Positions 18,616 through 20,476 of a stretch of DNA of 40,794 nucleotides are shown one piece after another. Origin of the DNA: Bacteroidota bacterium (GTDB taxonomy: Bacteria; Bacteroidota; Ignavibacteria; Kapaibacteriales; UBA2268); the NCBI GenBank assembly GCA_021824625.1, contig JAKAKE010000171.1, forward strand, positions 1-40,794, read 5' to 3'. Both the position numbers and the translations under genes were made by a program. Position 1 is the stretch's first letter, and each line of letters starts with the position of its first letter. The notes beneath the pieces are model-generated. The model made no database searches. It was not told the DNA's origin and worked only from the letters and a program-made list of their open reading frames with translations.

Positions 18616-19629
18616 TCACATTTCTCCATATTGCGATTTATAATAGTCCCTATACGCACCTGTTCTGACGTTATTGCACCAAAGCGGATTGTCAATATAC
18701 CATTGAATTGTTTCGCTGATGCCTTGTTCAAAATTAATTTTCGGAGACCAATTTAGCTTTGCTTTTATTTTTTCAATGTCCATTGCATATCTTCTATCAT
18801 GCCCGGGACGGTCTTTTACATATTTAATGAGTGAATCAGGCTTATTGAGTTGTTTAAGAATTGTTGTAATAACATCAATATTTGTCAACTCACAATTTCC
18901 ACCGAGATTATAAATTTGACCTTGCTCACCTTTCTTATAAACAGTCCAAATCGCATCGCAATGGTCCTGAACATGAATCCAGTCTCTGATGTTTAAACCG
19001 TCTCCATACACAGGCAGAGGATTATTATCAAGTGCATTCAAAATGATAAGAGGAATAAGCTTTTCAGGAAATTGATAAGGACCATAATTGTTCGAACATC
19101 TTGTAATAATTGCCGGAGTATTATAAGTATGTACAAATGCCAATACTAACTGGTCTGCGGCTGATTTTGATGCAGAATAAGGTGAATTTGGTGATAATGG
19201 TGTTGTTTCAATAAATTTGCCTGATTCTCCAAGTGAGCCATAGACCTCATCAGTCGAAACATGAACCAATAATTTTAATTTCAATTCATTGACAACTTCC
19301 AATAATATTAAAGTTCCCAAAACATTTGTATCTATAAAAGGATGGGCGTTCATTATTGAACGGTCAACGTGTGATTCTGCCGCAAAATTTATGATTGATG
19401 TTACTTTATGTTTTTCACAAACAGATTTGACTAATTCTGCATTTTGGATTGAGCCATGAACAATAGTATAGTTCGGATTTTTTTCAATTGATTTTAGGTT
19501 CTCAAGATTCCCGGCATAAGTCAATGCATCCAGGTTGACAATATTCACATCCTCAGCAGATAGAATATGTCTTATAAAACAGCTTCCTATGAAGCCTGCC
19601 CCACCTGTTACAAGAATAGATTCAATCAT
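18616..19629 (-). CDS. rfbB: dTDP-glucose 4,6-dehydratase
   Basis: ILVTGGAGFIGSCFIRHIL, NLDALTYAGNLENL, NFAAESHVDRSI, HVSTDEVYGSLGE, PYSASKSAADQLVLAFVHTY, TRCSNNYGPYQFPEKLIPLIILNAL, RDWIHVQDHCDAI, RPGHDRRYAMD. Confidence 0.97.
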   Translation of the reverse strand: MIESILVTGGAGFIGSCFIRHILSAEDVNIVNLDALTYAGNLENLKSIEKNPNYTIVHGSIQNAELVKSVCEKHKVTSIINFAAESHVDRSIMNAHPFIDTNVLGTLILLEVVNELKLKLLVHVSTDEVYGSLGESGKFIETTPLSPNSPYSASKSAADQLVLAFVHTYNTPAIITRCSNNYGPYQFPEKLIPLIILNALDNNPLPVYGDGLNIRDWIHVQDHCDAIWTVYKKGEQGQIYNLGGNCELTNIDVITTILKQLNKPDSLIKYVKDRPGHDRRYAMDIEKIKAKLNWSPKINFEQGISETIQWYIDNPLWCNNVRTGAYRDYYKSQYGEM

Positions 19630-19698
19630 TTCAATTTATCAGATTAAAATAAATTTAAAATTACGGAAACATTGAAGAAAATCAAAACCATTGAATAA

Positions 19699-19778
19699 GG
19701 GTATTGCTAATTTACTATACATCATTCGTCATTCTGAGCGAAGTTGAGAATGACATCTATACCAAATTAGCAATACCC
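19699..19778. mobile_element. MITE-like non-autonomous element: 15-bp perfect terminal inverted repeats, inner inverted repeat, flanking 7-bp direct repeat
   Basis: GGGTATTGCTAATTT (19699-19713) and its exact reverse complement AAATTAGCAATACCC (19764-19778); inner IR GTCATTCT (19728-19735)/AGAATGAC (19747-19754); GAATAAG at 19693-19699 and 19779-19785. Confidence 0.65.
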
Positions 19779-19822
19779 GAATAAGAAGAAATCAAAATAA
19801 AATAATCTATTGTTTTGAAAAA

Positions 19823-20476
19823 TTACTTAATATGGCAGGTAAGGCACAAAGCACTTCCATCATTTGATTTCCTCAATGATAAAGTCTTTGTCTGCATGGG
19901 ATGAATAGTATGACAACCGGTACATCCTGAATTATTTCTATGGACATGAACATCATGACATGAAATACATTCAAGTTTATTATTGACAAGCAAGTCCTGT
20001 GCTATCGTTCCACCCAAACCTGAAGATTGAGTCGCCGGGTCACGAAGCCCGCCATCAGCATTAGCAAGTGAAGTTGAATATTCAAATGAAATAGGATGTT
20101 GATTTCTCATGTCAGTACCAAAACTGCCGGTAGTCATAAATAGTGTACCGCTTGTCGTACCTCCATAACTGTCTATTGCAATTGTACCGTCATGGCAAGA
20201 CAAACAGAGCTTAGAGATTCCGCCAGGTTGTCCGACTGTAGCATTTAATGTACTGCTGGTATATGTCTGATAAGTTGATGTAGTGTTTTGATGATTCCAA
20301 AGTGTTCCATTAATAATGTCCTGGTTGGCATTGTGAGGAGTATGACAAGGAATACAAATTTCAAAATTTGCCCATGATGAACCGCTGAAATCATGGTGTG
20401 AATACCGAATACCTGCACTCAAATAAGTAAGCTGACAAAATAAAATTACTATAACTAAAACAATTAATAATCTCAT
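19823..20476 (-). CDS. Secreted multiheme (five CXXCH) cytochrome c family protein
   Basis: CIPCH, CLSCH, CISCH, CTGCH, CLTCH motifs after an N-terminal signal peptide; resembles doubled-CXXCH proteins. Confidence 0.9.
   Translation of the reverse strand: MRLLIVLVIVILFCQLTYLSAGIRYSHHDFSGSSWANFEICIPCHTPHNANQDIINGTLWNHQNTTSTYQTYTSSTLNATVGQPGGISKLCLSCHDGTIAIDSYGGTTSGTLFMTTGSFGTDMRNQHPISFEYSTSLANADGGLRDPATQSSGLGGTIAQDLLVNNKLECISCHDVHVHRNNSGCTGCHTIHPMQTKTLSLRKSNDGSALCLTCHIK

Follow-up and report, generated by a model that had tools for sequence, protein, structure and literature searches.

A miniature element with IS1-type ends and a REP-like core palindrome between a cytochrome gene and rfbB in an uncultured Ignavibacteria genome

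The short palindromic element located between two genes in the window (the whole stretch of DNA analyzed, 40,794 nucleotides) is very probably an IS1-type MITE, that is, a non-autonomous miniature transposon. With its relatives it makes up a well-supported new family of IS1-derived MITEs, in which the terminal sequences enclose a captured, apparently exchangeable REP-like core. An uncultured lineage gains in this way a well-bounded family of mobile elements for which the transposase family is identified, and REP-like palindromes lacking a dedicated transposase gain a possible and testable route of spread, inside miniature IS1 elements.

Results

Structure and boundaries of the element

The features of the region are collected in Table 1. 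A perfect 15-bp inverted repeat (GGGTATTGCTAATTT / AAATTAGCAATACCC, residues 19699-19713 and 19764-19778) spans 80 bp end to end, and continues imperfectly to form 24-nt arms (88%). No other perfect 15-bp inverted repeat of the window has a spacer of at most 120 bp; 100 dinucleotide-shuffled windows yielded five such repeats in total, or about 0.05 per window. GAATAAG is found on both sides (19693-19699 and 19779-19785), the last G of the left copy being shared with the inverted repeat. The interior hosts a second palindrome, with arms GTCATTCT...AGAATGAC. No ORF of 80 or more amino acids crosses the element, and no Rfam match was found within the window. Folding energies are -33.6 kcal/mol for the plus and -37.1 kcal/mol for the minus strand, z being about -8.

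Much of this had been anticipated by the earlier note. The perfect 15-bp terminal repeats are as described there, while the length of 79 bp is to be replaced by 80 bp for the repeat span and, by comparison of copies, by 78 bp for the element itself. Similarly, the GAATAAG direct repeat does flank the element on both sides, and its width is 8 bp, with one base changed, rather than 7. The second inverted repeat within the core, the lack of an ORF and the location between the rfbB start and the cytochrome c gene (gene calls agree) were all recovered. Folding, suggested there as a check, is strong on both strands.

Table 1. Coordinates of the element, its parts and the neighboring genes in the window
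Feature	Position	Strand	Remarks
IS1-type MITE (very probable), 78 bp, GGTATT...AATACC	19700..19777	.	13 copies in host genome; ends resemble IS1-family elements
Left 8-bp target site duplication copy TGAATAAG	19692..19699	+	7/8 identical; family-wide repeats exactly 8 bp
Right 8-bp target site duplication copy CGAATAAG	19778..19785	+	
Left terminal inverted repeat GGTATTGCTAATTTACTATACATC	19700..19723	+	
Right terminal inverted repeat, minus strand reads GGTATTGCTAATTTGGTATAGATG	19754..19777	-	
Core palindrome GTCATTCTGAGCGAAGTTGAGAATGAC, short form of dispersed REP-like (CGTC-type-like) repeat	19728..19754	.	core also occurs without a shell and within another TIR shell
dTDP-glucose 4,6-dehydratase (rfbB), downstream neighbor	18616..19629	-	TIGR01181, 478 bits
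Small multihaem c-type cytochrome (doubled CXXCH), upstream neighbor	19823..20476	-	TIGR01905

Copies in the host genome

Near-full matches to the element reside on several contigs of the host genome (3.58 Mb in 231 contigs), and partial matches are many. Thirteen dispersed copies, 78 to 257 bp in length, are recognizable with both ends read, a number taken from searches that may be low; they have the ends in common and differ in the interior. All of the 11 copies for which the gene context was checked are intergenic, two of these lying near a contig end. Related copies were also detected in G003, a species of the host's genus. One of the G003 contigs shares a stretch of 2,000 identical bases with a contig of Ignavibacteria bacterium RIFOXYC2_FULL_35_21, and the window is therefore assigned to the RIFOXYC2_FULL_35_21 genus of uncultured Ignavibacteria. 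An old family, rather than an active one, is suggested by the single mismatch in the duplication flanking the window copy and by the divergence of the copies from each other.

Target site duplication

Duplications were monitored in 22 MITE copies and the host IS1 element (23 in total), with ends fixed by the shared terminal sequence GGTATT...AATACC and mispaired flanks serving as controls. The flanks agree at a width of 8 bp only (mean identity 0.848 vs. a background of 0.31), widths of 4-7 and 9-12 bp being at or near background. Perfect 8-bp repeats are found in 11 of 23 cases, as against 1 of 506 mispaired controls, and repeats with at least seven of eight identical residues in 17 of 23, as against 3 of 506. 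A duplication of 6 or 7 bp with GGGTATT ends, as read by eye, was discarded on this width test. The sequence duplicated varies between copies. Its width falls within the 8-9 bp of the IS1 family, and is 8 bp in the MITEs, in the host IS1 and in the Bacteroidia IS1 described below.

Empty sites in sister species

Both neighboring genes lie on the minus strand, which places the element between the end of the cytochrome gene and the start of rfbB. In two sister species (G001 and G002) the two genes are adjacent, at 74-77% nucleotide identity, and the element is absent. Between the aligned stretches the window has 160 and 125 unaligned bp, vs. 47 and 11 bp in G001 and G002, respectively. In G002 the intergenic sequence is similar to that of the window to the left and to the right of the insertion point, and lacks the element. 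For G003, the rfbB side aligns at 84% identity as far as the insertion region, beyond which a different sequence follows. The right-hand gene next to the copy of host contig C12 is likewise free of the element in all three sister species, the left-hand side being unaligned.

These data bear on the alternative that the palindrome is a structural hairpin, a terminator or a regulatory RNA, kept by selection between the cytochrome gene and rfbB. The strong predicted fold and the position between two co-directional genes are what such a hairpin would display. Yet no terminator-like site (GC-rich stem followed by a T-run) is present at the element, Rfam provided no match, two sister species lack the sequence at this site, and the element recurs at many unrelated loci. 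A selected hairpin is accordingly extremely unlikely, and the region is best read as a MITE insertion. The element may incidentally influence transcription, and the expression of rfbB or neighboring genes might be altered.

Relationship to the IS1 family

A scan of genome contigs for the end sequence retrieved MITEs and elements with an IS1-like zinc-ribbon ORF. The sole IS1-family element found in the host, on contig C191, is 770 bp long and encodes a frameshifted transposase, with InsA and InsB' in overlapping frames and an A8 run. It matches PF03400 with 62.8 bits (cut-off 24.1) and, in its second part, NCBIfam transpos_IS1 with 104.9 bits (cut-off 100), and is flanked by a perfect 8-bp duplication (ATATCCTA). 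Its ends are identical to the MITE consensus at 20/24 and 19/24 positions. Scores of 19 or more were reached by 22 of 156,006 24-mers in the first 55 loci, the MITE ends themselves included. Closer ends were found elsewhere in the phylum: an IS1 element of 750 bp in a Bacteroidia genome (G434), with an 8/8 duplication (GATAGTAT), is identical to the MITE at 22/24 and 20/24 end positions, and one end read in a Bacteroidales IS1 (G435) at 23/24. MITEs and autonomous IS1-family elements have their ends in common. For ISCaa4, an IS1-family element of Bacteroidota, a length of 732 bp is published, together with 22-bp ends, 8-bp repeats and a -1 frameshift (PMC3196728). With the ends of the host and G434 IS1 elements close to those of the MITE, and with ISCaa4 similar in size, end length, frameshift and 8-bp repeats, the MITE ends are, by sequence comparison, firmly assigned to the IS1 family.

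At 4-5 of the 24 end positions, among them position 8 with G for C, the C191 element departs from the MITE consensus, and for this reason it may not be the actual mobilizer; a closer-matching IS1 may have been lost, or be missing from the assembly in 231 contigs. A search of 396 genomes of the phylum with an end pattern matched in the host only; the pattern had been fitted to the MITE and the host IS1, and the IS1 match is in part circular. Matches to the end pattern in viral contigs (L116-L166) were rejected as elements, most of them being one conserved coding sequence matched by chance. End patterns of 18 bases alone are insufficient for calling an element.

The core palindrome

At E ≤0.01, and with both strands counted, the core (GTCATTCTGAGCGAAG...GAATGAC) is matched 63 times in the host, often in the form of an inverted pair of about 79 bp. 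Many of these places lack the shell, 11 being classified as bare by a loose automatic sorting; at 4 mismatches the sorting is too loose for single ends, and only the two-ended and bare classes were used. The window copy carries a short, 27-bp form, perhaps an internal deletion of a longer core. The core is not derived from an IS, and is a separately dispersed REP-like repeat, of which no description was found in the literature. Its CGTC/TGTC tag, stem ends, dispersal and inverted dimers, the features compared, are reminiscent of CGTC-type REPs, to which it may belong. No dedicated transposase was found for CGTC-type REPs by Di Nocera et al. 2013 (PMC3733652).

The same core is held by a second TIR element, 169-170 bp long (ATACCAAATTGATAAC...GTTATC..TTGGTAT), found on host contigs C197, C59, C115 and C185 (L244, L246, L251 and L228/L269) and in G003 (L205). 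This second shell is unrelated to the MITE shell, and has TTA flanks on both sides. In the 257-bp copy of contig C12 (L012, positions 1275-1531) part of the second TIR element is apparently merged into the interior of the MITE.

One could hold that the palindrome is itself the spreading unit, a REP-like repeat and nothing else, the outer inverted repeat being accidental or a palindrome present at the target. Many sites do show the core without a shell, a second TIR shell that is unrelated to the first contains it as well, and REP dimers are known within longer palindromes (Di Nocera et al. 2013, PMC3733652). Against this, the outer ends are common to all copies and IS1-like, the 8-bp duplications lie outside the TIRs, and a coreless shell exists; from these three observations it follows that the shell moves as a unit. 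A repeat spreading by itself accounts for the core, not for the element, and as an explanation of the latter is very unlikely and already largely refuted.

Shells in other Bacteroidota

An IS1-type MITE with a captured core is the reading into which related shells from other genomes can be fitted. In the Bacteroidia genome NC_groundwater_1710 (G060), one copy of this shell type is empty: it measures 53 bp, and its two halves (100% identical to query residues 1-30 and 98-121) abut. At the same point the shell is also filled, by a CGTCATTGCGAGC-type pair in one case and by a third sequence in another. At four G060 loci (L214, L209, L210 and L213) empty and filled shells display the identical junction TTTTTAGA^CTCTATA. 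In another Bacteroidota genome (G061) the shell contains a different repeat, with 15 matches in that genome. A shell plus an exchangeable captured palindrome apparently fits the host, G060 and G061, which are few genomes. Tentatively, IS1-type MITE shells might be general vehicles for CGTC-like REP palindromes, their center being an exchangeable slot, a rather doubtful generalization put forward because the G060 shells are empty or differently filled, and the Ignavibacteria and G061 shells contain repeats that are numerous in the respective genome.

At least two further groups of elements, 100-111 bp in length and with IS1-like ends (GGTATTGTTAATTTAGTATAG, GGCATTGCTAATTAAGTATAG), were observed in Bacteroidales Cc175_bin60 (G436, L291-L317). 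Several are near contig ends, and clear 8-bp repeats are seen in few.

Discussion

A plausible course of events can be outlined from these sequences. A DDE transposase of the IS1 family, acting in trans, would recognize the ends of about 24 bp (consensus GGTATTGCTAATTTANTATANAT) and move the element into AT-rich intergenic DNA, insertion leaving an 8-bp target duplication. The transposase would come from the C191 IS1 or from a closer, unassembled IS1. The middle of the element would be a captured REP-like palindrome, of the kind that occurs independently elsewhere in the genome. The earlier note had proposed a non-autonomous transposable element carrying, or built from, a dispersed palindrome, and had suggested looking for multiple copies with different flanking duplications, an IS with matching termini and empty sites. 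The proposal is borne out by 13 host copies with 8-bp duplications varying between them, by a host IS1-family element with related ends (19-20/24), by two sister species in which the flanking genes are retained and the element is absent, and by cores found in the genome without the shell. Transposition of the MITE is thus probable.

Comparison with known systems

The element resembles members of the IS1 family (ISCaa4 of Amoebophilus asiaticus, E. coli IS1) in the ends of about 22-24 bp starting with GGT, in the 8-bp duplications and in the autonomous partner of 730-770 bp with two overlapping frames; unlike them, it lacks a transposase gene and measures only 78 bp. TIRs, target duplication, lack of an ORF, intergenic location and stable fold are features in common with the Correia/NEMIS, Nezha, Chunjie and MITEAba12 MITEs, from which it differs in having IS1-type ends and an interior made up almost entirely by a separately dispersed palindrome. 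The core is similar to CGTC-tagged REPs (Di Nocera et al. 2013, PMC3733652) in the T/CGTC tag, the AT-first stem, the pairs in opposite orientation and the occasional residence within longer palindromes. In contrast, the core stem (GTCATTCTGAGCGAAGCGAAGAAT) has a tandem G-A mismatch. QMITE2 of Coxiella burnetii, a MITE with a GTAG REP inside (review PMC10969869), likewise holds a REP palindrome within a MITE, but here the REP is CGTC-like, and the core varies between lineages and occurs outside any shell and within a second one as well. The interior of the MITE is unusual, yet, as QMITE2 of Coxiella indicates, precedented.
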